NCBI GenBank assembly: GCA_016342745.1 | Contig: JAEINT010000021.1 | Location: 30,465-94,464, forward strand | Direction: 5' to 3' | Origin: Labilibaculum sp. | GTDB lineage: Bacteria > Bacteroidota > Bacteroidia > Bacteroidales > Marinifilaceae | Length of the DNA: 64,000 bases | Shown: positions 4,725-46,242 of the stretch, piece by piece | How the letters are laid out: each line of letters opens with the position of its first letter | Numbering within the stretch: the stretch's first letter is position 1 | Notes under the pieces: generated by a model | What the model saw: the letters and a program-made list of their open reading frames with translations, nothing else | What the model was told of the DNA's origin: nothing | Databases searched by the model: none | Translations under genes and position numbers: made by a program

Positions 4725-5666
4725 TTATCCATGCAAATCCAGTTCATTTAGCATGTATAGGGAGTGTTCTACGGTTTTAAAAATCTCAGAACAGTACTCA
4801 TTTACCGCTTTTGGACTACCAGGCATCGTATAAACTAAAGTTTTATTCATAACACCTGCAATCCCTCTACTCACAAGAGCATTTGGTTTCTCCATACCGT
4901 ATTTTACACGTATTAATTCCATAATTCCAGGAATTTCTTTCGTTAGGTGTTTTTTAACAACATCTGGTGTAATATCTCTAGGACCAATACCTGTACCTCC
5001 AGTAGTGAAAACAGCATCGTAATTTTCTTTCTGAGCTTTTTTAAGCAGTTTACTTAAATCTTCTTCTTGGTCTGGAATAATCATTTTGTCAATATGGTAA
5101 TGACGATTCTTGGATTTGAAAAAATCTTCAGCTAATTTTTCCAATAAAGGGCCACTTTTATCTTCATATTCTCCTCGACTTGCCCGATCACTAAGTGTGA
5201 TAATCATTGTCTTTATAATTCGTGGATGATAGACAAGTACATCTCCAGCCTTTAAATTTCCATCTTTTAAAACCCTACAGAATATTCCTTCTTTGGGCAT
5301 TACACAATTACCAATTTCGCGGAAAATACTGCAATTATCGCCATGGCATTTTTTACCAATTTGAGTCACTTCTAACTCCAAATCACCGAAAAGGAAACGA
5401 TCAAGTGGGGCTGTGTGATGAAGTAGAATGCCTTCTGTAGTAATGTTTTCTGCAAATTCACCAAAGTCAATTTTTCGTTTGGCTTTTATTGAGAATTTAT
5501 CAACACTTTCCTTTGCTAATAAACTTACCTGTCGATGCCAGTTGCCCGAATGAGCATCGTTCGCTACTCCTTTTGAGTTTAACTCGATAGAATCAACAGG
5601 TTTTTTTATGGTGCCTTTTTTCTCAGATATATTTACAGACAGTACTGCTACTTTTTTATCGCTCAT
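4725..5666 (-). CDS. MOSC domain fused to MoaB/MogA-type molybdopterin-binding protein
   Basis: The 313-residue protein joins two molybdenum-cofactor modules. Residues 1-150 are a MOSC domain with the conserved Cys cluster region (KKCHGDNCSI, GNCVMPKEGIFCRV), associated with sulfur or metal transfer to Moco. Residues 152-313 are a MoaB/MogA domain (TLSDRASRGEY, TTGGTGIGPRDITPD, MPGSPKAVNEYC), which adenylylates molybdopterin before metal insertion. It is the last gene of the minus-strand Moco operon, 14 bases after moaC. The fusion occurs in several anaerobes; which enzyme the MOSC part serves is unknown. Confidence 0.9.
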   Translation of the reverse strand: MSDKKVAVLSVNISEKKGTIKKPVDSIELNSKGVANDAHSGNWHRQVSLLAKESVDKFSIKAKRKIDFGEFAENITTEGILLHHTAPLDRFLFGDLELEVTQIGKKCHGDNCSIFREIGNCVMPKEGIFCRVLKDGNLKAGDVLVYHPRIIKTMIITLSDRASRGEYEDKSGPLLEKLAEDFFKSKNRHYHIDKMIIPDQEEDLSKLLKKAQKENYDAVFTTGGTGIGPRDITPDVVKKHLTKEIPGIMELIRVKYGMEKPNALVSRGIAGVMNKTLVYTMPGSPKAVNEYCSEIFKTVEHSLYMLNELDLHG

Positions 5667-5680
5667 AATTATCGGCTTTC

Positions 5681-6136
5681 TTATTTTATATCGATCTTGG
5701 TTTTCTCCAATAGAGTTATTCCTACTATTATCATGGATTTATCAACTGCCTTACACATATCGTAAACGGTCAATAGTGCAACACTGGCAGCTGTTAATGC
5801 TTCCATTTCAACACCTGTTTGACCGATACATTTAACTCTAGTGTTGGCTTGAACTCCATTTTCTACAATTGTACATTTCACTTCAGCTTTTGTAATTTGA
5901 AGTGTATGGCAAAGAGGAATTAGGTCGCTTGTTTTTTTTGCAGCCTGAATTCCTGCTATTTCGGCAATGGTTAATACATCACCTTTTTTAAGCGCATTTT
6001 CTTTTATTAATTCAATGGTTCTTGGTTCAAGTTGAATGATACCAGTTGCTTTTGCTTCTCGCATTTGTGGCGTTTTATCACCTACATCAACCATGTTGGC
6101 TTTCCCATCCTTATCTATATGACTAAATTCTCCCAT
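5681..6136 (-). CDS. moaC: Cyclic pyranopterin monophosphate synthase MoaC
   Basis: MoaC converts the MoaA product 3',8-cyclo-dihydro-GTP to cyclic pyranopterin monophosphate. Family signatures are present: HIDKDGKANMVDVGDK near the N-terminus, LIPLCHTLQ, and the active-site run GVEMEALTAASVALLT followed by YDMCKAVDK with the catalytic Lys. At about 151 residues the length is normal. The open frame extends to a GTG at 6148, but the ATG at 6136 (MGEFSHID) fits the family N-terminus. It sits between moaA and the MOSC/MoaB fusion in one operon. Confidence 0.94.
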   Translation of the reverse strand: MGEFSHIDKDGKANMVDVGDKTPQMREAKATGIIQLEPRTIELIKENALKKGDVLTIAEIAGIQAAKKTSDLIPLCHTLQITKAEVKCTIVENGVQANTRVKCIGQTGVEMEALTAASVALLTVYDMCKAVDKSMIIVGITLLEKTKIDIK

Positions 6137-6140
6137 TTTA

Positions 6141-6178
6141 CTGATCACTGTTTACTAATAATTGTTCACTGACCTCTG
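6141..6178. repeat. CAGT-rich intergenic repeat inside the moa operon
   Basis: The short moaA-moaC spacer contains ACTGATCACTGTTTACT and TTGTTCACTGA, permutations of a TCACTG/TTTACTG unit. A related string on the opposite strand lies at 55044-55079 (CAGTAAACAGTAAAG, ATCAGTGAACAG). It looks like a dispersed simple repeat that entered the operon spacer without disrupting a gene. Confidence 0.45.
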
Positions 6179-6188
6179 ATGACTTTAC

Positions 6189-6989
6189 TTACCCTCCAAT
6201 ACCGTAAAAGCTACCATCCTTATTTTTGGTTCCAGCTTTTGGTTTGTGGTTAATCGATTTGTCAATTGCTTTCTTATTGCCCAATTCGTTAATGTCAAAT
6301 TCACTAGCATTAAAAAGGCATGGTTTAACTTTTCCGTTAGCCGTTAAACGAATCCGATTACATTCAACACAGTTGCCGCCTTTTCCACCTTCTACAATCG
6401 AAAACTCACCACTGGCTAAATCCATTTGTTTAATGAAACGCAGCTCTAGATTATTTTGTTTACAATATTTGTGCAAATGCTCTAGGTCATCTAGGTCAGC
6501 ATTTGGCATACGAACACAATTAATTTTTACCGGATGTAAACCAGCTTCTTGCGCGGCCTTTATTCCTTTAAAAACATCTTCAATATTACCCAATCGGGTT
6601 AATTCCTTATACCTTTTAGGATTCATTGTGTCCAGACTGATATTTACTCTACACAAACCAGCCTCGGCTAATTGTTTGGCAAATTTATCGAGTAAGATAC
6701 CATTGGTAGTCATTGCGATTTCTTCTATCCCTGAAATTTCAGCTATTATTTTTACTAAATCAACAATCCCTTTACGGACCAAGGGTTCTCCACCTGTTAG
6801 TCTCACTTTGGTAATTCCTGTAGCGACAGCTTCTTTTACGAAATCGCCTATTTGTTCAAAGCTCAAAACTTCATCATGAGCCATCAAATCAACGCCATCT
6901 TCGGGCATACAATAAGTGCATCGAAGATTACATCGATCTGTAACAGATATTCGTAAGTAATTAATATTTCTGTTATAATTGTCTAACAT
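6189..6989 (-). CDS. moaA: GTP 3',8-cyclase MoaA, compact form
   Basis: This radical-SAM enzyme performs the first step of Moco synthesis on GTP. Visible are the N-terminal cluster CNLRCTYC, LTGGEPLVR, the C-terminal cluster (CVECNRIRL, then a Cys in KVKPCLF) and the essential Gly-Gly C-terminus (GSFYGIGG). The ATG at 6989 (MLDNYNRN) gives 266 residues and overlaps the end of moeA by 17 bases; the longer frame to 7064 lies inside moeA. E. coli MoaA has about 329 residues and its C-terminal Cys cluster begins near residue 257. Here it begins near 207, so about 50 residues between RFIKQM and the cluster are absent, without any frameshift. Confidence 0.92.
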   Translation of the reverse strand: MLDNYNRNINYLRISVTDRCNLRCTYCMPEDGVDLMAHDEVLSFEQIGDFVKEAVATGITKVRLTGGEPLVRKGIVDLVKIIAEISGIEEIAMTTNGILLDKFAKQLAEAGLCRVNISLDTMNPKRYKELTRLGNIEDVFKGIKAAQEAGLHPVKINCVRMPNADLDDLEHLHKYCKQNNLELRFIKQMDLASGEFSIVEGGKGGNCVECNRIRLTANGKVKPCLFNASEFDINELGNKKAIDKSINHKPKAGTKNKDGSFYGIGG

Positions 6990-8148
6990 GTACAAATTCT
7001 CCTTCCATAAATTCATCAACTTCACGCGGAACCGCCATAATTCCGTTTGCCATGGTAAAGGCATTTATATGCGCTGAACCGTGATAATTAATCGGAACAA
7101 CTTTATTGTTGGCATTAAATCGAACAGGTATAAATTCCAATCGATCAGTTCTTTTTCTTTTGTACTCAGATGCTATTGGCATGCGCACCATTGGGGCATT
7201 ATAATCGTGACCCATTAAGCGGTAAAGCATTGGTTTTCCCAATAACTCAAATTGGACAAATGAGGATACTGGATTTCCTGGTAATCCCAATACATATTTT
7301 CCTTTGCTAGTAGCAAAAACAGTATGCTTTCCTGGTTTAACAGCTAGAGTGTGAAACCAGATATTGAATCCTAACTCTTTAAGAATTTGTGGGATATAGT
7401 CGAAATCTCCCACGGAAACACCTCCAGAAATAATTAAAACATCATTTTCTTCCAGACACTTAACCATAGCTTCTTTGGTTGCTTCTTTTGAGTCAGCAAC
7501 AATACCATGGTTATAACCCTTAATTCCCATTTTTTGCAATTGTGCATTTAATTGCCACGAGTTTACATTTCTTATTTGGGATTTATTTGGTTTGTCTTGT
7601 GGCTCTACCAATTCACTCCCAGTTGCGATAGTTGCAACTTTTGGTTGGCGGTAAACAGCAGGACTTGAGCACCCAACAGATGCTAAAACCGAAATGTGTT
7701 GTGCTTTTAGTCGTGTTCCTTTTGTTAAAACCACATCGTTTTTTAAAATATCTTCCCCTTTAAGGCAAATATTCGATTTTGTTTTTTCTTTCGTAAAACG
7801 AATGTGTCCTTCATCAACTTCTTCCGTGTGCTCAATCATGATAACAGTATCTGCACCTTCTGGAACCATTGCTCCAGTCATTATTTTGGAGCATTGTTTA
7901 TCTCCAATATTTAAAGTTGGAGCCGAACCAGCAGCAATAACTTCTAGGACTTCAAGATTTTCACTTAAATCAGACTGTTTACAGGCATAACCATCCATAG
8001 CTGATTTATTAAACGGAGGTAGCGACATATCAGAAAGTACATCTTCGGCTAATACTCGATTCAAACAATCCGAAAGATCAATAATCTCTCTGTCTAATTT
8101 AGTTGTGGCATGTTTAACTGTTTTCAATGCCTCGTGAAACGTAATCAT
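6973..8148 (-). CDS. moeA: Molybdopterin molybdotransferase MoeA
   Basis: MoeA inserts molybdate into adenylylated molybdopterin. The 391-residue protein shows the N-terminal signature LPPFNKSAMDGYA, the MPT-binding domain (ATGSELV, IISGGVSVGDFDY, GLPGNPVSSFVQF) and a C-terminal beta domain (VPINYHGSAHI). Length and order match the family. It starts 4 bases after mobB ends and overlaps the moaA start, implying translational coupling in one transcript. Confidence 0.94.
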   Translation of the reverse strand: MITFHEALKTVKHATTKLDREIIDLSDCLNRVLAEDVLSDMSLPPFNKSAMDGYACKQSDLSENLEVLEVIAAGSAPTLNIGDKQCSKIMTGAMVPEGADTVIMIEHTEEVDEGHIRFTKEKTKSNICLKGEDILKNDVVLTKGTRLKAQHISVLASVGCSSPAVYRQPKVATIATGSELVEPQDKPNKSQIRNVNSWQLNAQLQKMGIKGYNHGIVADSKEATKEAMVKCLEENDVLIISGGVSVGDFDYIPQILKELGFNIWFHTLAVKPGKHTVFATSKGKYVLGLPGNPVSSFVQFELLGKPMLYRLMGHDYNAPMVRMPIASEYKRKRTDRLEFIPVRFNANNKVVPINYHGSAHINAFTMANGIMAVPREVDEFMEGEFVHVRQL

Positions 8149-8152
8149 ATTG

Positions 8153-8698
8153 TTAGTTTTTTATTAACCAGCCATTTTCGGTAAAAGCAATTTTATTACT
8201 GTCAAAATCGAATTTTTCACCATTAAATTCAATCTTTTTGTCAGCCAATTGTTTGTACTTAATAGCTCTGGATTTTATTTGGTTATTGTTTTTTTTATCA
8301 ATCATTAAAAATAGACCTGGTACAATCAGGTCCCGCAATCCTCCCGATTCACAAATAATTGGATTTTCTGGGGGGATAACCTTTTCAAAATAAGAAAGAA
8401 TATCTGGAAGAGTATCATCTTTTCCTTGAACGTAATAGACCTCTTTGCTTCCAGCTCTGAATAATCGATTACTATCTTTATTTCCTTTTTTGCTGTATTC
8501 TTTTGTAATCACATAATCAGCGGTTTCTTTAATAAGCTCTAATTTATCACTTATTTTATGAAAATGAGGTGATATTTTAATACAAATGAGATTACTTTTG
8601 CATTTCAAATTGTTAATTAATTGGCATGCAAACAGGGTTTTACCAACATTTCTGCCAGTTCCTGCAATTAGTAATATGTTTTTTCTGATATTATTCAT
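8153..8698 (-). CDS. mobB: MobB-like molybdopterin-guanine dinucleotide biosynthesis P-loop protein
   Basis: The product has a P-loop near the N-terminus (IAGTGRNVGKTLFA) in the MobB/CobQ-like arrangement and an acidic-aromatic region ICESGGLRDL consistent with a Walker-B-like segment. The ATG at 8698 gives about 181 residues; the longer frame to 8725 runs into the terminator hairpin. MobB assists MobA in adding GMP to Moco. It is the first gene of the operon, directly after the leader attenuator. A generic P-loop NTPase with another role is possible, but the context supports MobB. Confidence 0.7.
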   Translation of the reverse strand: MNNIRKNILLIAGTGRNVGKTLFACQLINNLKCKSNLICIKISPHFHKISDKLELIKETADYVITKEYSKKGNKDSNRLFRAGSKEVYYVQGKDDTLPDILSYFEKVIPPENPIICESGGLRDLIVPGLFLMIDKKNNNQIKSRAIKYKQLADKKIEFNGEKFDFDSNKIAFTENGWLIKN

Positions 8699-8701
8699 TC
8701 T

Positions 8702-8743
8702 AAAAAATAAAAACCTCCAACTCATGTCTTGAATTGGAGGTTT
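8702..8743 (-). terminator. Attenuator-like terminator before the Moco operon
   Basis: On the minus strand AAACCTCCAA and TTGGAGGTTT (8743-8711) form a 10-bp stem followed by a T-rich tract that reaches to within a few bases of the mobB ATG. No minus-strand gene lies upstream within 450 bases, so its likely role is conditional termination under control of the preceding leader RNA. Confidence 0.8.
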
Positions 8744-8749
8744 ATGTTT

Positions 8750-8912
8750 TAAGAAAGAATAGCGTGCAATTTACCATGGCAGGATAAACGAGACAATCTA
8801 TTCTTCAGACCTAAATCACAATACTCCTTTCCAATTTTGGGTCTATGCCCAGCGGGAGACAAACTCGTTTCCAAGTTTACCTATCGGTTTACAATCCTTT
8901 CCAATTATTTTA
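8750..8912 (-). promoter_or_regulatory. Structured leader RNA, candidate molybdenum-cofactor riboswitch
   Basis: Between the promoter and the attenuator the minus strand can form several helices. AAACTTG-GAAA-CGAGTTT is a 7-bp hairpin capped by a GNRA tetraloop (8878-8861). It is followed by CTCCCGCTGGGCATAGACCC, then an AGACC/GGTCT pairing and an 8-bp AAGAATAG/CTATTCTT helix (about 8804-8752). Moco-responsive RNAs commonly precede Moco synthesis operons and include a GNRA hairpin. Position, GNRA loop and downstream attenuator all fit, but I cannot align it to the family model. AATTGGAAAGGA occurs twice in the leader. Confidence 0.5.
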
Positions 8913-8953
8913 TTGGTGAAGTAACTGACAACTCGGAGATTATTTAATAGTGG

Positions 8954-14751: not shown

Positions 14752-15678
14752 ATGTCAGATAGTGTAAAAGTTTTTGCTCCAGGTAGTGTTTCTAACGTTG
14801 GCTGTGGTTTCGATATATTAGGATTCGCCATTGATGGGGTAGGTGATGAAATGATTGTTAAGAAAAATGATCAAAACAAAATAGTAATAGCGCCAATTAA
14901 AGATTATGAGAATCTGCCTACAGATCCAAAGAAGAATGTAGCTAGTGTCGCCATTCAGGCTTTATTAGACGATTTAGGAAGCGATCAAGGTTTCGATGTT
15001 GAGATTATTAAGAATATTAAACCTGGAAGCGGAATTGGATCGAGTGCAGCTAGTGCAGCGGGTGGAGTAGTTGCAGTTAATGAATTGTTAGGAAATCCTT
15101 ATTCTCGTTTGCAGTTGGTTGATTTTGCTATGAAGGGTGAAGAAGTTGCATCAGGAGATGTTCATGCTGATAATGTGGCACCAGCAACTTTAGGTGGCTT
15201 CTGTCTAATTAGAGGCTACGATCCTTTGGATGTAATTCACATTCAGCAGCCAGAGAATCTTTGGTGTACGGTAATTCATCCGCAAATTGAAATTAAAACA
15301 AAAGAATCTCGTGAATTGTTATCTCCAGAAATTCCTTTGAAAAAAGCGATTCGACAGTGGGGAAATGTAGCAGGATTAATGTCTGGACTTTATACTTCTA
15401 ATTACGAATTAATTGGGCGTTCGCTAGAAGATCATATTGTAGAGCCACAAAGAAAAGTACTAATTCCTGAATTTGATGAATTAAAGCTGTCCGTAATGGA
15501 GGCTGGTGCTCTTGGATGTAGTATTTCAGGATCGGGTCCTTCTGTTTTTGCTTTGGCAAATGGAAGAGAAACGGCCGATGTTATTGCAGCAGCTATGGAT
15601 ACTGTTTTTAAACGTACCGATTTAGATTACAAAATATATGTGTCTAAAGTCAGCGATGGAGGAGTTAAAATCCTATAG
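14752..15678 (+). CDS. thrB: Homoserine kinase
   Basis: ThrB phosphorylates homoserine. The GHMP-kinase ATP loop PGSGIGSSAASAAGG is clear at about residues 90-105, with the N-terminal FAPGSVSNVGCGFDI and the C-terminal GCSISGSGPSVFAL motif. The 308-residue length is standard. It follows thrA by 23 bases. Confidence 0.95.
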   Translation: MSDSVKVFAPGSVSNVGCGFDILGFAIDGVGDEMIVKKNDQNKIVIAPIKDYENLPTDPKKNVASVAIQALLDDLGSDQGFDVEIIKNIKPGSGIGSSAASAAGGVVAVNELLGNPYSRLQLVDFAMKGEEVASGDVHADNVAPATLGGFCLIRGYDPLDVIHIQQPENLWCTVIHPQIEIKTKESRELLSPEIPLKKAIRQWGNVAGLMSGLYTSNYELIGRSLEDHIVEPQRKVLIPEFDELKLSVMEAGALGCSISGSGPSVFALANGRETADVIAAAMDTVFKRTDLDYKIYVSKVSDGGVKIL

Positions 15679-15734
15679 TGCTCGCAGTGATAGATAAATG
15701 AAAGATTGATTTAAATTCAGGAAAGGAACTACCA

Positions 15735-17033
15735 GTGAAATATTTTAGTACAAATAATACAGAGTTACGATACAGCTTTAAAGAAGCTGTTATAAAAGGC
15801 CTTGCGCCTGATAAGGGATTGTTTTTCCCAGTTTCAATACCCAAATTAAGTGATGCATTTTTTAAGAATTTACCTAATTTAAGTTTGCCGGAAATTGGTT
15901 TTGAGGTAGCTAAGCATTTTGTTGGAGACGATATTTCAGATGCTAACCTTAGGGAAATTACGGAAGAGGTTCTAAACTTTCCAATCCCTGTTGTACCAGT
16001 AGAAGAAGGAATCAGTACATTGGAATTGTTCCACGGACCTACTTGTGCCTTTAAAGATGTTGGTGCTCGTTTCATGTCTCGATGTTTAAGTGCATTTGCG
16101 AAGAAAAGTCAGGAAGATGTTACCATTTTAGTTGCAACCTCAGGTGACACGGGCAGTGCTGTAGCAAATGGATTTCTTGGTGTTGAAGGTGTACAGGTTA
16201 TTATATTGTATCCTGCAGGCAAGGTGAGTAAAATTCAGGAGCAACAATTGACAACAATGGGACAGAACATTACTGCTCTCGAAGTTGATGGTACTTTTGA
16301 CGATTGTCAGGCATTGGTTAAAACCGCTTTCGCGGATAAAGAATTAAATGAGAAGTTGAACTTAACATCAGCTAATTCAATTAATATTGCTCGATTGTTG
16401 CCTCAAAGCTTTTATTATTTTTATGCTTGGGCACAAATGCAGCCAACCAATAAGAAATTGGTGTTTTCTGTGCCAAGTGGAAACTACGGAAATTTAACGG
16501 GAGGATTGTTGGCTAAACAAATGGGTTTACCAATTCATTCTTTTGTTGCAGCTGCAAACAAAAACAAAGTAGTACCAGATTATTTGGCTTCGGGTAAATA
16601 CGAGCCAAAGGCATCGGTCCAAACCATTTCCAATGCAATGGATGTTGGTGCACCAAGTAATTTTGCTAGAATGATGGAAATGTATCAAGATCGCCATGCT
16701 GATGTAATTAAAGATGTAAATGGAGCTTGGAACACTGATGAGGAGACCGAAGAAGCGATGTTGGATGTATATAATAGGACTAAATACATTTTAGATCCTC
16801 ATGGGGCAGTTGCTTATCTCGGATTGAAGAAATACCTTAATGTGAAAGATGAGCTTGGTATTTTCCTTGAAACAGCACATCCAGCGAAATTTAAAGATAC
16901 GGTGGAGGCAGTATTAAATACCGAAATAAAGATTCCAGACTATTTACAGGAGTGTTTAGGGAAAAAAAAGTTAAGTTTTTTAATTAGTAAAGAATTTAAT
17001 GATTTTAAGGCATATCTTTTAAAAATAGATTAA
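15735..17033 (+). CDS. thrC: Threonine synthase
   Basis: This PLP enzyme converts O-phosphohomoserine to threonine. The Schiff-base Lys lies in GPTCAFKDVGARFMS and the phosphate-binding region in SGNYGNLTGGLLA; the N-terminal YFSTNNTELRYSFKEA is typical of ThrC. The start is a GTG at 15735 preceded by GGAAAGGA. It is the last gene of the operon, with 432 residues, followed 7 bases later by a strong terminator. Confidence 0.95.
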   Translation: MKYFSTNNTELRYSFKEAVIKGLAPDKGLFFPVSIPKLSDAFFKNLPNLSLPEIGFEVAKHFVGDDISDANLREITEEVLNFPIPVVPVEEGISTLELFHGPTCAFKDVGARFMSRCLSAFAKKSQEDVTILVATSGDTGSAVANGFLGVEGVQVIILYPAGKVSKIQEQQLTTMGQNITALEVDGTFDDCQALVKTAFADKELNEKLNLTSANSINIARLLPQSFYYFYAWAQMQPTNKKLVFSVPSGNYGNLTGGLLAKQMGLPIHSFVAAANKNKVVPDYLASGKYEPKASVQTISNAMDVGAPSNFARMMEMYQDRHADVIKDVNGAWNTDEETEEAMLDVYNRTKYILDPHGAVAYLGLKKYLNVKDELGIFLETAHPAKFKDTVEAVLNTEIKIPDYLQECLGKKKLSFLISKEFNDFKAYLLKID

Positions 17034-17040
17034 ATATTCA

Positions 17041-17073
17041 AAATGCTGTCTCCTATTCGAGACAGCATTTTTT
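17041..17073 (+). terminator. Intrinsic terminator of the thr operon
   Basis: AAATGCTGTCTC and GAGACAGCATTT form a perfect 12-bp stem with a 6-nt loop and a T6 tail. Confidence 0.92.
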
Positions 17074-17420
17074 CTAAGCATCTCATAATGATGTATATCA
17101 TTCTGTTTTGCATCTCTAGTAATATTAAGGTGTTTGTAGATTTGAATAGAATGTATTGATTGCTAGTGCTTATTTGGTTGATAGATAGTTTTTTGACTTG
17201 CTTTTTGTTTTGTTTTAATTCAAGTGAGGAGTTTAATATAATTGAATATTAGTAATCAGAACTTTTGCTATAATGGTTAAATAAAATTACCATTTAAATA
17301 CTGTTATGATTTAATTAATATTCTGCATTTAATGGTTTACGGGGAGTACCGTAAATTTTGTCTCATTTATTATGTTGTACTCATTGAAAGATTAAAATTG
17401 TTATTTTTTCTTATTGGAAA
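17074..17420. other. Intergenic region upstream of HU with palindromes
   Basis: No gene is seen. TTTACGG/CCGTAAA (17336-17355, 6-nt loop) is a compact inverted repeat about 150 bases before the HU start; ATGGT/ACCAT arms lie near 17272-17292. These may be regulator sites for the HU promoter. Confidence 0.35.
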
Positions 17421-17451
17421 TTTGCAAACCATCAGAAATCCTTTATATTTG
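17421..17451 (+). promoter_or_regulatory. Consensus Bacteroidota promoter of the HU gene
   Basis: TTTG at 17421-17424, 19 bases, then TATATTTG at 17444-17451 match the primary-sigma consensus (TTTG-N19-TAnnTTTG) perfectly, 51 bases before the ATG. It is the clearest promoter in the window. Confidence 0.8.
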
Positions 17452-17502
17452 TATATGATTCAAATTTAAAAACAATTTTTAACCCTAAAATTTTATAAAG
17501 TT

Positions 17503-17775
17503 ATGAACAAAGCTCAATTAATTGATGCAATTGCTAGCAAAGCTGGTTTGACTAAAGCTGATTCTAAAAAAGCATTAGATGCTTTCATTGAAACTACTAC
17601 TGAAGCATTAAAAGGTGATGATAGAGTAGCACTTGTAGGATTTGGTTCATTTTCTGTTTCTAAGCGTGATGCTAGAACTGGTAGAAATCCTCAAACTGGT
17701 AAGCCAATTAATATTCCAGCTAAAAAAGTTATCAAATTTAAAGCTGGTTCTGAATTAGCAGACTCTGTACAATAG
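17503..17775 (+). CDS. HU-family DNA-binding protein
   Basis: The 90-residue protein has the full HU fold: helix-turn-helix N-terminus ([20 protein letters not shown]), GFGSFSV, and the DNA-wrapping arm [15 protein letters not shown]. It bends and compacts chromosomal DNA as a dimer. The consensus promoter and strong terminator suggest high monocistronic expression. Confidence 0.96.
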
Positions 17776-34846: not shown

Positions 34847-36046
34847 CTATTTGTACAATTCTTTTAAGCGAGTTGCCATTCCTTCAGCCAGTGCAGCACA
34901 TTGATCGAAATCTTCGCTGTTTGGAGCACAAAGTGCTTCAGGTGTAGCTTCAATGGTTTCCCATTTAATTGCTTCAGCAAATTTATTCAATCGCTTAAGG
35001 CCTCCGCCTCCCCATGATTTAGATCCGAATACACCTAATACATGATCTTTAACTGCCATGTGTTCCAATTCGTTGATTAATGTTTCCATAGTTGGGAAAA
35101 CATCACCATTGTAGGCACAACTACCTAAAATTACACCACGAAATTTAAAAATATCGTTAATGATATAAGAAGGGTGTGTTTTTGAAGCATCGTGAATACG
35201 AATTTTCTTGATTCCTCGCTTTACCAATTGACGTGCGATGTTGTCCGCCATTTTTTCTGTATTTCCATACATAGAAGAGTAAACAATTACACAACCTTCG
35301 TCGGTTTTGTATTGGCTCCACTTATCGTATTTTGCTACAATATCAGCAACATGAGTTCTCCAGATTGGTCCGTGAGTAGCACAGATCATTTTGATCTCTA
35401 AACCACCAAGTTTCTTCAATGCATTTTGCGTTGGGCGACCATATTTGCCAACAATATTTGAATAGTAACGACTAATTTCATCATCCAAATAATCCAAATC
35501 CAATTCGTCATCGAAAATGCCACCATCAAGTGTTCCGAATGCACCAAAAGCATCACCAGAGAATAAAATTCCATTTGTCGATTCGAAAGTTACCATGGTT
35601 TCTGGCCAGTGCAACATTGGCACCATATAGAAATTCAATTTGTGTTCTCCCAAATCGATGTTGTCGCCTTCTTTTACTTCTAAAAGGTTATCCTTGATTC
35701 CGTAAAAACGCTCCAGCATAGGGAATGTTTTCTTGTTTCCTACTATTTGCATTTCAGGATAACGTTCAACCAAAGACCTTATAGATCCAGAGTGATCTGG
35801 TTCCATATGATTAATGATAAGGTAATCTGCTTTACGACCGTCCAACACTTCTTCAATATTGTCAAGATACTCATCCATAGTGCCTTTCTCAACAGTATCA
35901 ACAATGGCTACTTTTTCGTCAAGAATAACGTACGAGTTGTACGCTACTCCTTTTGGTAAAGGCCAGTAGTTTTCAAAAATGTGAGTTTTTCTGTCGTTGG
36001 TTCCTACCCAGAAAATTTTATCAGTAATGTTGTTCTTATTGTGCAT
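34847..36046 (-). CDS. FprA-type flavodiiron protein (NO/O2 reductase)
   Basis: The N-terminal beta-lactamase-like domain (about 1-250) has the diiron ligands HMEPDHSGS, then MLHWPETM, SGDAFGAFG and the later His in CATHGPIWR. The C-terminal flavodoxin domain binds FMN (YSSMYGNTEKMADNIA). These enzymes reduce NO to N2O and/or O2 to water in anaerobes. The ATG at 36046 (MHNKNNIT) is preferred; the frame extends to 36064. It sits 200 bases from a Crp/Fnr regulator gene on the same strand. Confidence 0.92.
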   Translation of the reverse strand: MHNKNNITDKIFWVGTNDRKTHIFENYWPLPKGVAYNSYVILDEKVAIVDTVEKGTMDEYLDNIEEVLDGRKADYLIINHMEPDHSGSIRSLVERYPEMQIVGNKKTFPMLERFYGIKDNLLEVKEGDNIDLGEHKLNFYMVPMLHWPETMVTFESTNGILFSGDAFGAFGTLDGGIFDDELDLDYLDDEISRYYSNIVGKYGRPTQNALKKLGGLEIKMICATHGPIWRTHVADIVAKYDKWSQYKTDEGCVIVYSSMYGNTEKMADNIARQLVKRGIKKIRIHDASKTHPSYIINDIFKFRGVILGSCAYNGDVFPTMETLINELEHMAVKDHVLGVFGSKSWGGGGLKRLNKFAEAIKWETIEATPEALCAPNSEDFDQCAALAEGMATRLKELYK

Positions 36047-36245
36047 TTTTAATGTTTTTGTCAATTTTGTGTATTCAGACTTTTCAGACCCATTTTCACA
36101 ACTACTCTAGGGTAGAAGTAGAGTTAAAAGTCTTACGTGCTCAGATTTATAACAAGAAACTAGAACACTTTGTTTACAGCCCACAAAATTAAGAATATTT
36201 TTATTTTCGAAATGCTTCTACAACATCTTCTTTTAAAATTCTTAC

Positions 36246-36917
36246 CTATTGTTGCAAAAGCCTGATGAGTTGTTGCTTATTTATGATTTTTATCTCTCTT
36301 CTGTTGGTTTCAATTAAACCTTCTTGTTCCATTTCTTTTAAACTACGGGCAAAAGATGGGCGTGTTACGCCAAAGAACTGGGCCATTTCCGACTGGGACT
36401 TAGGCATTGTAATTTCACTTTTATCTGGAGCAGCTAATTTTAGAATGTAATTGGCTAATTTTCCTTTTATGGTTTTAAAGTTTAAAAACATCAATTTATT
36501 GGCCAAAAACTGACTTCTATTCGATATTGAATTAAGGTAATTGGTAAGAAAAACTTTATTTTCCATGAAAAGATCAATTACTGATGCTTTTGCAAGAGAG
36601 AAAATCTCGACTTCGTCGTTTGCAGTAACATTAACTGGAAATTGATTCCGTTGCCCAAATAAAAACGCTGAAGCAATAGGATAGGGTGCCATAATGTCTT
36701 CAATCTTAATGCTTTTACCTGATGGATCTAGCATTTCCCCCTTAACACTACCTTTTAAAACGATCATTAAGTTTTCGCAGCGATCTTCACGAAAAGCAAT
36801 CATGTCTCCTTTGGTATATTTTTTAATTTGAAATTGAGCATTACTCAAGAGTTCTTCCAAATCCTCAGGAGAAATTCCTCTAAATACAGGCGATTGCGAA
36901 AGTTGTTGATATAGCAT
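36246..36917 (-). CDS. Crp/Fnr-family transcriptional regulator
   Basis: An N-terminal cyclic-nucleotide-binding-like beta-barrel (about 20-120, CENLMIVLKGSVKGE) and a C-terminal winged helix (SEMAQFFGVTRPSFARSLKEM) give the standard 223-residue regulator. FNR-type cluster Cys residues are missing (one Cys only), so it is not an iron-sulfur O2 sensor; the ligand is unknown and could be heme/NO as in HcpR/DNR proteins. Its location next to the flavodiiron gene and the palindrome at 41808 suggest a nitrosative or redox regulon. Confidence 0.9.
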   Translation of the reverse strand: MLYQQLSQSPVFRGISPEDLEELLSNAQFQIKKYTKGDMIAFREDRCENLMIVLKGSVKGEMLDPSGKSIKIEDIMAPYPIASAFLFGQRNQFPVNVTANDEVEIFSLAKASVIDLFMENKVFLTNYLNSISNRSQFLANKLMFLNFKTIKGKLANYILKLAAPDKSEITMPKSQSEMAQFFGVTRPSFARSLKEMEQEGLIETNRREIKIINKQQLIRLLQQ

Positions 36918-41883: not shown

Positions 41884-43173
41884 ATGGAGAATCAATATTT
41901 TAATACCACAGATAGTTTACTTGATATTTGCACTAAATATCCAGAAACAATAAAAATTTTTGTTTCAAACGGATTCAAGCAATTAGAGGATGAGAAGAAA
42001 AGAGCGCTTTTTGGAAAATCATTATCCTTGGGAATGGCTTTGAAGATGAAGAAATTAAATGTGGATACTTTTACTACTTTATTAGTGGAAGGTATTGATT
42101 TGAATCGTAAACAAGTTGATGGAGATTTAAATCAGAATACAAAAGAACAAAAGGCAGATTCAGTTCACATTCAAGGATTACTTCCTTGTCCAGTGCGTGT
42201 TCCTTTGGTTGAAGGTATTGAGGGGTTTATAGCCGAATATGAAAAAGAGCACGATAACGAAATCGTTTATGATTTAAAAGCTGCTTCGATGGGATTAGAT
42301 TGGTTAATTGATGATGTAATTAATCAGGAGAATACCGATAATTTAGCTGACGTTTTTATTTCTGCAGGTTTTGATTTGTTCTTCGATGACAAATTGATGG
42401 GTAAATTCAAAAAACAAGGCGTATTTAAGGATAGTACAGGTTTCGATCGCTTGAACAAAGATTTCGATAATGATGATATTTGTTTGAAAGATCCACAAGG
42501 GCATTATTCTATGATTGGTGTTGTTCCAGCAGTATTCTTGGTAAACAAGGATGAGTTAGGAGACAGACCAGTTCCTCGCACATGGGCAGATATTTTCAAG
42601 CCTGAATTTAAGAGAAGCGTAAGTTTACCAATTAGTGATTTTGATTTGTTTAACTCCATGTTGCTGCATATTTACAAAGCTTATGGCGAAGAAGGGGTAA
42701 GAGGTTTAGGAGCTTGTTTATTGGAAAGTATGCACCCATCTCAAATGGTAAAATCTCATACCAAAAAGAGTCAGAAACCAGCCATTACAATTATGCCTTA
42801 TTTCTTTACCAAAATGGTAAAAGTTGGAGGTCCAATGATAGCCGTATGGCCAGAAGATGGTGCGATTATCAGTCCAATTTTCATGTTGACAAAAGAAGAT
42901 CGTTTGGAGAAAACGCAGCCAGTAATTGATTTCTTCGCATCAGAAGGAGTTGGTGAAATTCTTTCGCATCAAGGCTTATTCCCAAGTATCAATCCTAATG
43001 TTGATAATCGTTTACCAGAAGAGAATAAATTCATGTGGTTGGGTTGGGATTACATCAATAGTAACGATATTGGTTCGTTAATTACAAAATGTGAAGCTAT
43101 CTTTAAGAAATCCATACAGGATGAATCGTTTGCAAATTTAGGACCTTTGAATTATACACCAAGCAACGATTAA
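41884..43173 (+). CDS. Solute-binding-protein fold with DUF1858-like N-terminus, no signal peptide
   Basis: Residues 1-70 (TTDSLLDICTKYPETIKIFVSNGF) resemble the DUF1858/ScdA-N helical domain associated with hybrid-cluster and redox proteins. From about 95 the chain reads like a class II periplasmic binding protein of the Fe3+/molybdate type (CPVRVPLVEGIEGFIAEYE, GVVPAVFLVNK, PRTWADIFKPEFK). There is no signal peptide or lipobox, so the domain should be cytoplasmic, unusual for this fold. First of four same-strand genes; the next starts 48 bases later. Ligand unknown; a metal, oxyanion or cofactor is inferred from the partners. Confidence 0.75.
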   Translation: MENQYFNTTDSLLDICTKYPETIKIFVSNGFKQLEDEKKRALFGKSLSLGMALKMKKLNVDTFTTLLVEGIDLNRKQVDGDLNQNTKEQKADSVHIQGLLPCPVRVPLVEGIEGFIAEYEKEHDNEIVYDLKAASMGLDWLIDDVINQENTDNLADVFISAGFDLFFDDKLMGKFKKQGVFKDSTGFDRLNKDFDNDDICLKDPQGHYSMIGVVPAVFLVNKDELGDRPVPRTWADIFKPEFKRSVSLPISDFDLFNSMLLHIYKAYGEEGVRGLGACLLESMHPSQMVKSHTKKSQKPAITIMPYFFTKMVKVGGPMIAVWPEDGAIISPIFMLTKEDRLEKTQPVIDFFASEGVGEILSHQGLFPSINPNVDNRLPEENKFMWLGWDYINSNDIGSLITKCEAIFKKSIQDESFANLGPLNYTPSND

Positions 43174-43221
43174 TAATCGTAAAATCAGTAAAAAAAATTG
43201 AATACTTAAACAGCACCAGAT

Positions 43222-43929
43222 ATGAACTTAGTTACAGTTTCAGGACCTCCTTCATCAGGAAAAACAGCAGTGATTTTAAAGACCATCGATTCGTTACAAA
43301 AGCGAGGTTTAGAAGTTGGTGTGGTGAAATTTGATTGCCTTTATACCGATGATGATATTTTATATGAAAAGGCTGGAGTGAAGGTGAAAAAAGGATTGTC
43401 CGGTTCACTTTGCCCAGATCATTATTTTGTAAGTAATATCGAGGAAGTAACTCAGTGGGGAATTAAGGAAGGATTAGATTTATTAATCACGGAAAGTGCT
43501 GGTTTATGTAATCGTTGTTCACCATATGTAAAAAGCATAACAGCTGTTTGTGTTATCGATAATTTGAGCGGAATTAATACACCAAAGAAAATTGGTCCGA
43601 TGTTGAAGAGTGCTGATATCGTTATTATCACAAAAGGTGATATTGTATCGCAAGCTGAAAGAGAAGTGTTTGCATCTAGAGTGAATCAAGTTAATCCTGG
43701 ATCGAGCATTATGCATATAAATGGATTAACAGGACAAGGCGCTTACGAGTTAAGCACATTACTGTACGATGAAAAAGTTGAGATAAAGACTTTAGTAGGT
43801 GAGAAATTGAGATTCTCAATGCCATCGGCTCTGTGTTCGTACTGTTTGGGCGAAACCAGAATTGGAGAAAGCTACCAAATGGGTAATGTTCGCAAGATTG
43901 ATATGAGCGACAAGAAGGACGAAAAGTAG
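43222..43929 (+). CDS. HypB/UreG-like SIMIBI GTPase with CxxC motifs
   Basis: The 235-residue protein has Walker A SGPPSSGKTAV at the N-terminus, a metal-site-like motif after Walker B (ITESAGLCNRCSPY) at the position where HypB and UreG carry their CP-type nickel sites, a base-recognition ITKGD, and a C-terminal CxxC (LCSYCLGETRIG). Family members drive metal insertion into hydrogenase or urease by GTP-dependent dimerisation. No hydrogenase or urease gene is in this window. It likely hands a metal or cofactor between its neighbours. Confidence 0.8.
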   Translation: MNLVTVSGPPSSGKTAVILKTIDSLQKRGLEVGVVKFDCLYTDDDILYEKAGVKVKKGLSGSLCPDHYFVSNIEEVTQWGIKEGLDLLITESAGLCNRCSPYVKSITAVCVIDNLSGINTPKKIGPMLKSADIVIITKGDIVSQAEREVFASRVNQVNPGSSIMHINGLTGQGAYELSTLLYDEKVEIKTLVGEKLRFSMPSALCSYCLGETRIGESYQMGNVRKIDMSDKKDEK

Positions 43930-43957
43930 ACTAGTAAAAGCTAAAAACAAACACGAC

Positions 43958-44986
43958 ATGATCACAGTTCAAGATATACAACAAAAAACAATCGCCGAAT
44001 TATTCGAGCAATATCCTTTTCTTCCTGGTTTTTTTGAGGAGAATACCTTACAGGTTAATGGTCAGATTGATGAGAAATTAATCGATTATCTGAAGTTTTT
44101 AGATGATGAGGAAGAAGCCGAGAACAGAGCCATTGATAAAGACCAGTTGATGGCATCGATGACCACTTACATTACTCAGATGTTGGAGTTTTTAGGTGAA
44201 GATGAGGATGATGGAGTTCATAGCATCAGCATTCTTCCAGGAACTAATAAATCTGGTGAAGCTGAGCAGTTTGGTGAATTGAAAATCAGTAAAAGTGAGA
44301 TTGTTTGTATCGTTGGGCCAACTGGATCGGGAAAAAGTAGATTATTAGGAGATATCGAATGGGTAGCTCAAAAAGATACGCCAACTTCACGTACCATTTT
44401 GGTAAATGGAGAAATGGGAGACAAAAAATGGCGTGTAAGTTCAGGACATAAATTAGTAGCTCAGCTATCGCAGAATATGAACTTTGTAATGGATCTTTCT
44501 GTTTACGAGTTTCTTGAATTGCATGCACAGAGTAGATTAGTTGAAGATATTGAAAGTGTTATTGCTAAGATAATTGAAGAAGCCAATAAGCTTGCTGGAG
44601 AAAAGTTTGCATTAACAACTCCTATTACAAGTTTGAGTGGCGGACAATCAAGGGCATTAATGATTGCAGATACTGCTATTTTAAGTAAGTCGCCAATTAT
44701 TTTGATTGATGAAATTGAAAATGCGGGTATCGATCGCAAAAAAGCCTTGGACTTGTTAATTGGTGAAGAAAAAATTGTTTTGATGGCAACGCACGATCCA
44801 ATGCTGGCTTTAATGGGCGACAAGCGAATCGTGATCAAAAATGGTGGAATTCACAAAGTGATTGAAACCAGCGATGAAGAGAGAAACCTATTGGTTGATT
44901 TGGAACGTATGGATTCTGTTGTTCAAAACATGAGAACAAGACTTCGTAACGGAGACATCATTAAAAAGGAAGACATCGGATTTTAA
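43958..44986 (+). CDS. ABC-type ATPase with DUF1858-like N-terminal domain, soluble
   Basis: Residues 1-60 (VQDIQQKTIAELFEQYPFLP) resemble the DUF1858 module of the first gene. Residues 95-300 form an ABC ATPase: Walker A GPTGSGKSRLL, signature LSGGQSRAL, Walker B IILIDEIENAGID and switch His MATHDPM. There are no membrane helices, and no permease gene is nearby. Such stand-alone ATPases can act in enzyme activation (for example the A2 component for methyl-coenzyme M reductase) rather than transport. Third gene, 28 bases after the GTPase. Confidence 0.82.
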   Translation: MITVQDIQQKTIAELFEQYPFLPGFFEENTLQVNGQIDEKLIDYLKFLDDEEEAENRAIDKDQLMASMTTYITQMLEFLGEDEDDGVHSISILPGTNKSGEAEQFGELKISKSEIVCIVGPTGSGKSRLLGDIEWVAQKDTPTSRTILVNGEMGDKKWRVSSGHKLVAQLSQNMNFVMDLSVYEFLELHAQSRLVEDIESVIAKIIEEANKLAGEKFALTTPITSLSGGQSRALMIADTAILSKSPIILIDEIENAGIDRKKALDLLIGEEKIVLMATHDPMLALMGDKRIVIKNGGIHKVIETSDEERNLLVDLERMDSVVQNMRTRLRNGDIIKKEDIGF

Positions 44987-45060
44987 TTATAAATGATGAA
45001 TTATTAATTAAAAATATCATGGCATTTGCTTCTTATTTAAGAAACAGATGATAGTATAAG

Positions 45061-45107
45061 AGTTCTCCCTTTTTGAGGGGAGATGGCGATAGTCAGAGGG
45101 GTGTTTT
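45061..45107. repeat. Dispersed repeat with CTCCC/GGGGAG hairpin, copy 1
   Basis: AGTTCTCCCTTTTTGAGGGG followed by AGATGGCGATAGTCAGAGGG resembles 53621-53667 in sequence and order. It lies in the spacer before the zinc-ribbon gene. Confidence 0.55.
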
Positions 45108-45202
45108 TATTAGAAAATAATACAAATTATAAAATCAGGTTTTGAAATGGGATAAGTTCTAAGATTTCCAATTTAAAATCTAATTAAAAGGAGGATAAAA
45201 TT

Positions 45203-45445
45203 ATGCATGACGGTTGCGCAGGAAGTTTCGAGAACGGACAACAAGTAGTTGATAAAGTAAGAATGATGGGTTTTGCTCAGCAATTGATGCCAATGCCATT
45301 GGATATCGAATGCCACGGATGTAAAGAGACTTTTACAATGGAAGAGTTCGAAGGACATTGTCCTAAATGTGATATGGTACATGGAGTAACACCTTGCCAC
45401 GCATTTGATCCTAATAACATTATGGCTGCAGGTGTAGGATACTAA
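45203..45445 (+). CDS. Small zinc-ribbon protein (80 aa)
   Basis: Six Cys include a CxxC-x12-CxxC zinc ribbon (C37/C40 and C53/C56), plus C5 and C65; the C-terminus is glycine-rich. The ATG has a strong ribosome site (AAAGGAGGAT). It follows the ABC ATPase by 216 bases on the same strand and is followed by a terminator. HypA, partner of HypB, is also a small zinc-ribbon metallochaperone, so this may be the analogue for the GTPase; that parallel is inference. Composition and spacing argue for a real gene. Confidence 0.75.
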   Translation: MHDGCAGSFENGQQVVDKVRMMGFAQQLMPMPLDIECHGCKETFTMEEFEGHCPKCDMVHGVTPCHAFDPNNIMAAGVGY

Positions 45446-45478: not shown

Positions 45479-45520
45479 AAAAATCCCAATAGAATATTCT
45501 AATTCTATTGGGATTTTTTG
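45479..45520 (+). terminator. Intrinsic terminator of the DUF1858/GTPase/ABC operon
   Basis: AAATCCCAATAGAAT and ATTCTATTGGGATTT form a 15-bp perfect stem with a 6-nt loop and T6 tail. Confidence 0.92.
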
Positions 45521-45567: not shown

Positions 45568-46242
45568 ATGAATTTAAATTTAGTTGATCAATTAACCCTT
45601 CTTGCATTAGATGATGAAAAGGGAAATTTTGTTGCCGATTCTTTTTCATTTGCATATGGCTTAGCAGGAGCTATTATTTTGGAGCTTTCTTTGCAAAATA
45701 AGATTGAGATTAGTGAGAAGAAGATAGAAGTGAATTCGCATAAAACTTGTGGAGATTTATTGCTTGATCATTTCATGGATCAGATTCGAAACTCGAAGAA
45801 AAAGAGAGATATACAGTCGTGGGTTCAGATAATTGGAGATAAGCTTTCTTTTGTTCAAGAAGAGACTGTTAAAAAGCTGATTGGCGATGGTATTCTACGC
45901 AAAAAAGAAGAAAAGATTCTTTGGGTCTTTTCAAATGACAAGTATCCAACCATAAATGCAAAGCCCGAAAACGAACTAAGAAAACGTCTAAATGATATTC
46001 TTTTAAACGATCGTAAGTTGGACTTGAAGGAAAGTATGTTGATTAGCTTAATTGATATGTGTTCTTTGAATAAGGAAGTTTTTGGCAAAGAGGGAGCCAA
46101 GAAATACGAAAAGAAAATCAAAGCAATTATTGAAAATGCAAAACTAAGTTCGGAGGTAGGGAAAGCAGTACAAGAAATTCATGATGCTTTAATGATGGTA
46201 ATTGTTATGATGTTAACAACTACGACAATTATTAATAATTAA
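45568..46242 (+). CDS. GPP34 (GOLPH3-like) family protein
   Basis: The N-terminal NLVDQLTLLALDDEKGNFV and AYGLAGAIILELSLQ are typical of the GPP34 domain, all-helical and named for a eukaryotic Golgi phosphoinositide-binding protein. A C-terminal hydrophobic stretch (LMMVIVMMLTTTTII) may associate with membrane. Length 224 residues. Bacterial members have no settled function. Monocistronic, convergent with the J-domain gene. Confidence 0.82.
   Translation: MNLNLVDQLTLLALDDEKGNFVADSFSFAYGLAGAIILELSLQNKIEISEKKIEVNSHKTCGDLLLDHFMDQIRNSKKKRDIQSWVQIIGDKLSFVQEETVKKLIGDGILRKKEEKILWVFSNDKYPTINAKPENELRKRLNDILLNDRKLDLKESMLISLIDMCSLNKEVFGKEGAKKYEKKIKAIIENAKLSSEVGKAVQEIHDALMMVIVMMLTTTTIINN

Follow-up and report, generated by a model that had tools for sequence, protein, structure and literature searches.

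A conserved cytosolic solute-binding protein, GTPase, and ABC ATPase gene set in Labilibaculum sp. and its predicted link to the hybrid cluster protein Hcp

The operon, its conservation, and its four proteins

We analysed a 64,000-nucleotide stretch of a Labilibaculum sp. genome (the window), which carries an operon encoding a solute-binding protein (SBP), a HypB/UreG-like GTPase, an ATP-binding cassette (ABC) ATPase, and a small HypA-like zinc ribbon (Table 1). Re-location of the open reading frames (ORFs) placed the four genes, as in a preliminary description of this DNA, in a single plus-strand run at 41884–45445. The SBP was 90% identical to a Labilibaculum protein, and the GTPase was 99% identical to that of L. 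filiforme.

Table 1. Features of the operon and of the associated regulator region, in window coordinates
Feature	Position	Strand	Basis
Cytosolic SBP, DUF1858 and SBP_bac_6 domains, conserved C102 and H284	41884..43173	+	Pfam, alignment, AlphaFold2 model, fold match
HypB/UreG-like GTPase with C39, C64-P-D-H67, C96xxC99, C110, C205xxC208	43222..43929	+	Profile scores, alignment
Permease-less ABC ATPase; N-terminal ~80 residues distantly DUF1858-like	43958..44986	+	Pfam, profile and fold comparison
HypA-like zinc ribbon, 80 residues; MHDGC start, CxxC...CPxC, C65	45203..45445	+	Profile scores, alignment
Predicted HcpR2-type operator TGTAACatcgGTTACA, 60 bp 5' of the SBP start codon	41808..41823		Published motif
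Inverted repeat and T run, terminator-like, 3' of the zinc ribbon gene	45483..45519 (about)	+	Read by eye
Crp/Fnr regulator with R-P-S-F-A-R recognition helix, candidate HcpR2	36246..36917	-	Pro-181 rule (PMC1274295, available excerpts)
Flavodiiron protein (ODP and flavodoxin domains), adjoining the regulator; outside the proposed machine	34847..36064	-	Domain match

Relatives were drawn from the best 80 of 190 confirmed GTPase alignments, and these 80 loci, the window, and eight further loci formed a set of 89. The 80 loci spanned Bacteroidota, Spirochaetes, Cloacimonadota, Fusobacteria, Firmicutes, Aminicenantes, Acidobacteria, and others. The SBP, GTPase, and ABC genes were found by tblastn in the same order and on the same strand in 76 of the 80 loci, and the four exceptions ended at contig edges. 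The zinc ribbon was present in 61; of the 19 loci without it, 14 (Firmicutes, Halanaerobia) had room for it, and the ribbon is thus not obligate. The neighbourhood check across anaerobes, set beforehand, therefore upheld the unit of the preliminary description for the first three genes and, less strictly, for the ribbon, and neither an overlooked signal peptide, nor an adjacent permease, nor separately travelling genes were met in the relatives. GTPases were at least 78% identical across the sampled phyla, a level of sequence identity pointing to strong constraint, to horizontal transfer, or to the two together.

The SBP matched DUF1858 (55.3 bits; cut-off, 32.2) and SBP_bac_6 (283 bits), and fold comparison of its AlphaFold2 model gave the fold of FbpA-type ferric-binding proteins. 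The conserved stretch P305-Y-F-F lay near the expected ligand region, as placed by sequence alignment rather than by residue-level structural superposition. A sequence search of the PDB with an SBP profile returned only the DUF1858 entry 2fi0 and weak SBP matches. The SBP had been described as lacking an export signal, and indeed no hydrophobic N-terminal stretch was found in the window SBP, read directly, or in 83 relatives. On a crude hydropathy scale, which is not a signal-peptide predictor, the best 15-residue stretch within the first 45 residues had a median of 0.58 among these relatives and a maximum of 1.84 (L166), compared with 2.15–2.81 in five exported-looking proteins.

The ABC ATPase (ABC_tran, 59 bits) conserved the Walker A, signature, Walker B, and H-loop motifs. 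No permease-like gene occurred in the window run or recurred beside the operon in the 89 loci, in agreement with its designation as permease-less. Membrane proteins were encoded in the same run in 17 of the 89 loci, and these were of several kinds, the commonest, a PepSY-like protein, occurring in four. An ordinary iron importer with an overlooked permease or signal peptide would fit the families of the SBP and ABC proteins, which are those of importers, but the N-termini of the 83 SBPs and the mixed membrane neighbours make this explanation extremely improbable.

Both of these proteins had been thought to begin with DUF1858-like domains, which is clear for the SBP and weak for the ABC ATPase. 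Seven of 29 ABC N-termini matched the Pfam DUF1858 profile (best E, 0.0024), the window protein not being among them, and a profile of the ABC N-domain matched the DUF1858 domain of the SBP with an E value of 7e-5 and a probability of 63%. A fold search with the ABC N-domain gave nothing significant at E 0.001; the top three entries were 2k5e, YtfE (5fnn), and 2k53, the first and last of which we take to be DUF1858 proteins.

The GTPase exceeded the gathering cut-off of PF02492, the CobW/HypB/UreG superfamily (51.1 versus 20.7 bits), and remained below the cut-offs for HypB (TIGR00073; 48.4 versus 121.2 bits) and UreG (TIGR00101; 27.9 versus 204.2 bits). Seven cysteines and H67 were invariant in the alignment of relatives, and the two CxxC pairs noted earlier correspond to C96–C99 and C205–C208. 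The zinc ribbon proved HypA-sized and HypA-like as described, with scores below the cut-offs of PF01155 (19.8 versus 28.9 bits) and TIGR00100 (18.4 versus 88.1 bits), a conserved Cys/His-rich pattern, and a Met-His start in most members. Directly 5' of the ribbon gene (45188–45202) lies a strong Shine-Dalgarno-like AAGGAGG, which to our knowledge is unusual for Bacteroidota and may hint at a horizontal origin.

Hcp as neighbour, predicted co-regulated gene, and genomic companion

Hcp is a nitric oxide (NO) reductase whose Fe-S-O cluster is unique. Its gene was the commonest neighbour of the operon, found in 26 of the 89 loci (mostly directly downstream, in a few upstream), whereas our own estimate of the chance expectation, for a single gene in a genome of 3 Mb, is approximately 1% per locus. 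Blind clustering of neighbours, with Marinifilaceae counted once, gave 24 locus groups for Hcp, followed by Rrf2 regulators (20), ABC ATPases (19), Crp/Fnr regulators (12), and cupins (11). The earlier statement that no target enzyme is adjacent thus holds for the window but not for the relatives, and the host hcp shares a predicted operator sequence with the operon. The host has a single prismane-family gene, this hcp (PF03063, 610 bits), and no carbon monoxide dehydrogenase (CODH). The product belongs to class I according to its Cx2C-x8-C-x5-C start (C5, C8, C17, C23), and it retains all of the residues that we take to be hybrid-cluster ligands (H242, E266, C310, C403, C431, C456, and E491).

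The recognition helix of the Crp/Fnr regulator upstream, aligned by eye with CRP and in what we take to be CRP numbering, carries a proline at position 181. The exact 14-mer GTAACnnnnGTTAC was found in the interval from -300 to +40 relative to the SBP gene in 27 of the 75 loci with usable upstream DNA, 12 of the 27 being Marinifilaceae. The remainder of the same loci contained nine exact sites in 1.19 Mb, corresponding to 0.19 expected before the SBP, and seven of these nine lay 76–115 bp before hcp. The same sequence is the HcpR2 site, tied to a proline at CRP position 181, in the available excerpts of Rodionov et al. 2005 (PMC1274295). In the 5.37 Mb host genome, the 16-mer TGTAACatcgGTTACA occurs twice, before the operon and approximately 140 bp before the only hcp. 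The seven host sites of the 14-mer comprise four inside ORFs and three in promoters, namely those of the operon, the only hcp, and a cupin gene. Given the promoter site and the Pro-181 candidate regulator, the operon is predicted to belong to the HcpR2 regulon.

The host cupin gene (L211:1106-1432), which is followed by a rhodanese gene, has an HcpR2-type site 69 bp upstream, and its product was 34–40% identical to the cupins directly preceding the operon in six loci (L016, L017, L022, L023, L030, and L064). Beside the host hcp, a PepSY-like membrane gene (L083:5178-6701) has homologues of 42–46% identity that adjoin the operon in L027, L031, L037, and L077. Because both genes have counterparts next to the operon in other phyla or orders, the cupin (with the rhodanese) and the PepSY-like protein may belong to the same pathway.

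Hcp (E 1e-40) was detected in 41 of the 48 genomes reached through the loci, these genomes having come from 50 of the 80 loci. Among 245 Clostridia genomes, the GTPase was matched in 14, and 11 of these matches reached at least 71% identity (identities counted by hand from match tables). All 11 had an Hcp of at least 57% identity, compared with 71 of the 245 overall (P 6.7e-7, or 2.3e-6 without the centre genome, which was picked for its GTPase); with any Hcp counted, the overall frequency was 117 of 245 (P 2.3e-4). Among 198 Spirochaetota genomes, 12 had a GTPase match, close in nine, and Hcp was present in eight of these nine compared with 64 of 198 overall (P 5.8e-4, centre genome included). 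The baseline Hcp frequency in both samples was approximately 30%. Hcp lay within approximately 5 kb of the close GTPase in three of 11 Clostridia and seven of nine Spirochaetota. The corresponding Bacteroidota count was dropped: all 14 GTPase genomes (of 247) had Hcp, but 13 of the GTPases were paralogues of 63–66% identity, and the sample is uninformative because a close GTPase was confined to the host. No Hcp was seen near the paralogous GTPase in the five such neighbourhoods viewed (L157–L161).

Sister triads and proposed role

Eleven paralogous GTPases (40–65% identity) all retained the listed cysteines and H67. Cytosolic-looking SBPs, GTPases, and ABC ATPases form sister triads in L149–L154 and L156–L161. 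An SBP-family neighbour was found at 10 paralogue loci, with starts that did not look export-like by eye, and the cysteine of C102 was kept in eight of these. DUF1858 was not found in the four sister SBPs scanned with Pfam, and no zinc ribbon was seen. Pfam matches or reading by eye identified FecB/FecC-type uptake, TonB-related, and methyltransferase genes as neighbours, and the L154 triad adjoins NifH- and NifD/K-like genes. As the paralogues keep the ligands and adjoin varied metal-system genes, the triad would seem to be a module that works alongside several different metal systems, its DUF1858-bearing form being the probable Hcp branch.

The fixed gene set, Hcp neighbour, common operator, Hcp co-occurrence, and invariant Cys/His residues together link the set strongly to Hcp and nitrosative stress, and from them we infer metal or cluster delivery. 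The conserved Cys/His pattern of the proteins would fit the nucleotide-driven metal or cofactor machine suggested in the preliminary description. In our proposal, to which we give about an even chance, the set is a soluble NTP-driven machine, co-induced with Hcp by HcpR, that delivers iron or a cluster precursor for hybrid-cluster assembly or repair under nitrosative stress. Once HcpR had induced the operon and hcp, as predicted, the SBP cleft would hold the metal or precursor through C102 and H284. The DUF1858-like domains would dock the SBP onto the ABC ATPase, and perhaps also onto Hcp, where ATP binding by the ABC pair may open the SBP in the manner of an importer but without the membrane part. 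The GTPase, with the zinc ribbon where present, may carry or gate the metal, a role that HypA/HypB and UreG play in the handling of nickel, and the iron or cluster precursor would finally be passed to Hcp, whose hybrid cluster would be assembled or repaired. Were this so, a transporter binding protein and ATPase would be working as a soluble metal loader, and hybrid-cluster assembly or repair would become directly testable through a conserved set of partners regulated together with Hcp. More tentatively, such membrane-free ABC machines, in which a reused iron-transporter binding protein and its ATPase are joined to a HypB-like GTPase, may constitute a new class of cytosolic metal loaders. The DUF1858/ribbon branch would build or rebuild the class I Hcp cluster, and the sister triads would work for other metal systems, among them nitrogenase-like enzymes.

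Several observations weigh against this proposal. In the host, the reversed control of the 16-mer gave one site compared with two real ones, and the 14-mer showed no genome-wide excess (seven sites versus 13 for its reversed control), so that the argument rests on site location. Hcp or the operator, at least one of the two, was present in 44 of the 89 loci, and most loci had neither. The co-occurrence statistics ignore kinship. Seven of the 48 carriers, all labelled metagenome-assembled genomes (MAGs) and three of them Aminicenantes, had no detected Hcp; with the Spirochaetota genome G626, such GTPase carriers number eight. A close GTPase was found in just 11 of the 117 Hcp-bearing Clostridia, and, as most of the sampled Hcp-bearing genomes lacked the set, Hcp is not strictly dependent on it. 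A special Hcp subclass was also considered and rejected, since the ligand positions were alike in 40 carrier Hcps (41 taken, one dropped for length) and 30 non-carrier Hcps. Finally, the SBP fold matched pyridoxal phosphate (PLP) binders and sugar-phosphate binders at nearly equal Z.

Beside the operon of the seven Hcp-less carriers, no obvious alternative client was seen. One of these MAGs (L074) encodes NrfA (a Pfam match) and, as judged by eye, an NrfH-like protein 3' of the operon, at 15620-17740. The three Aminicenantes MAGs (L020, L041, and L051) carry the full four-gene set and represent either incomplete bins or carriers with another client. On a quick Hcp tree, the carrier label changed 10 times, at least six of them on well-supported branches, compared with a shuffled mean of 22.8 (none of 500 shuffles was as low), and carriers were thus clustered. 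The absence of the set from most Hcp genomes, the identical ligands, and the 6–10 switches in its presence speak for a role in assembly or repair that is conditional rather than absolutely required.

The same absence, together with the carriers lacking detected Hcp, would also suit a general nitrosative-stress device that recovers iron or restores a range of Fe-S proteins damaged by NO and that shares no more than its regulation with Hcp. Further in its favour, an Rrf2-family regulator occurs in 20 of the 89 loci, in many of them before the operon, and the ABC N-domain weakly resembles YtfE/RIC. In five Spirochaete loci (L018, L036, L039, and two others), NifS- and NifU-like genes, recognised by eye, lie a few genes 5' of the operon on the opposite strand, with Rrf2 directly before the SBP. 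However, the commonest neighbour is Hcp rather than another repair or NO gene, and the host promoter sites are limited to the operon, hcp, and the cupin; we consider a general device somewhat unlikely.

The ambiguity of the SBP fold raises another alternative, in which the ligand of the SBP is a small molecule, for example a phosphate ester, PLP, or a nitrogen oxide. The NTPases would then turn the SBP into a sensor for Hcp, or into its feeder, and not into a metal loader. The invariant residues of the GTPase, which all 11 paralogues retain (several of these adjoining metal-uptake or nitrogenase-like genes), and the Cys/His-rich ribbon render this improbable. Nickel insertion in the manner of HypA/HypB would accord with the HypA-like ribbon, its usual Met-His start, and the UreG-like CP motif of the GTPase. 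It is nevertheless very improbable: the host has no HypB above the cut-off, the two sub-threshold matches being the operon GTPase and a CobW-like protein, and the only prismane-family gene encodes Hcp rather than a CODH, other nickel enzymes not having been searched for. The CobW-like GTPase gene (L217:400-3530) lies beside a uroporphyrinogen-decarboxylase-like gene (by eye) and possibly belongs to a corrinoid system.

Comparison with known systems and flanking genes

The set resembles known NTP-driven metallochaperones in part. It shares with HypA/HypB and UreG a SIMIBI GTPase of the same Pfam family, with Cys-Pro at the place of the UreG CPH motif, and with HypA/HypB a small ribbon encoded alongside the GTPase. 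Unlike HypB and UreG, the GTPase scores far below the family cut-offs, has extra invariant cysteines, and always accompanies an SBP and an ABC ATPase, and the predicted client is Hcp rather than hydrogenase or urease. The ferric-binding proteins FbpA and FutA1 and their importers share the SBP_bac_6 family, whereas the SBP described here has an N-terminal DUF1858 domain, no export signal, and no permease. The iron ligands of FbpA are a Tyr-Tyr pair, in place of which the SBP appears to have an invariant Cys and His rather than a clear pair of tyrosines. SufC is a soluble ABC ATPase in cluster work, as part of SufBCD, but the SufB/D scaffold is absent from the four genes. YtfE/RIC, an iron-centre protein of NO stress, has a DUF1858/ScdA_N-like domain (a weak fold match), whereas the four genes lack its hemerythrin-like domain. 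According to the available excerpts of PMC13056359 and PMC10502027, CooC/CooJ/CooT mediate NTP-driven maturation of CODH, a homologous cluster enzyme structurally related to Hcp; CooC differs in NTPase type, and no SBP or ABC protein is involved.

TIGR03980, named the hybrid cluster protein-associated domain, weakly matched the DUF1858 domain of 14 of 28 SBP relatives (best E, 3.3e-4) and not that of the window. Its name shows that a curator had already tied a related DUF1858-like domain to Hcp, without the SBP, GTPase, or ABC partners, and the tie to these proteins appears to be new within the literature searched. In agreement with the preliminary description, which knew of no pathway with this set, neither the set nor any Hcp maturation factor was described among the matches listed by a full-text search of open-licence PMC papers. 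The available excerpts of the C. difficile HcpR paper give hcp and frdX as targets (PMC12915319), and neither these nor the excerpts of a B. thetaiotaomicron preprint (PMC13370916) mention the set. As far as the excerpts extend, a Ni-CODH context study places HypA/HypB and importer genes, but not the present set, in the vicinity of some CODHs (PMC6344411), an Fe-S assembly review names the hybrid cluster only in two references (PMC8593673), and a survey from 2026, covering 1476 hcp operons, judged the neighbours too varied for interpretation (PMC13056359).

Elsewhere in the window, the flavodiiron protein adjoining the candidate regulator was found at the same position in eight further loci. 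A GPP34 (Golgi phosphoprotein 3) family gene (45568–46242) of this Bacteroidota-like genome lies immediately 3' of the terminator-like repeat. Ordinary-looking molybdenum cofactor (Moco) genes occupy 4725–8950, behind a Moco riboswitch on the minus strand (8808–8950).

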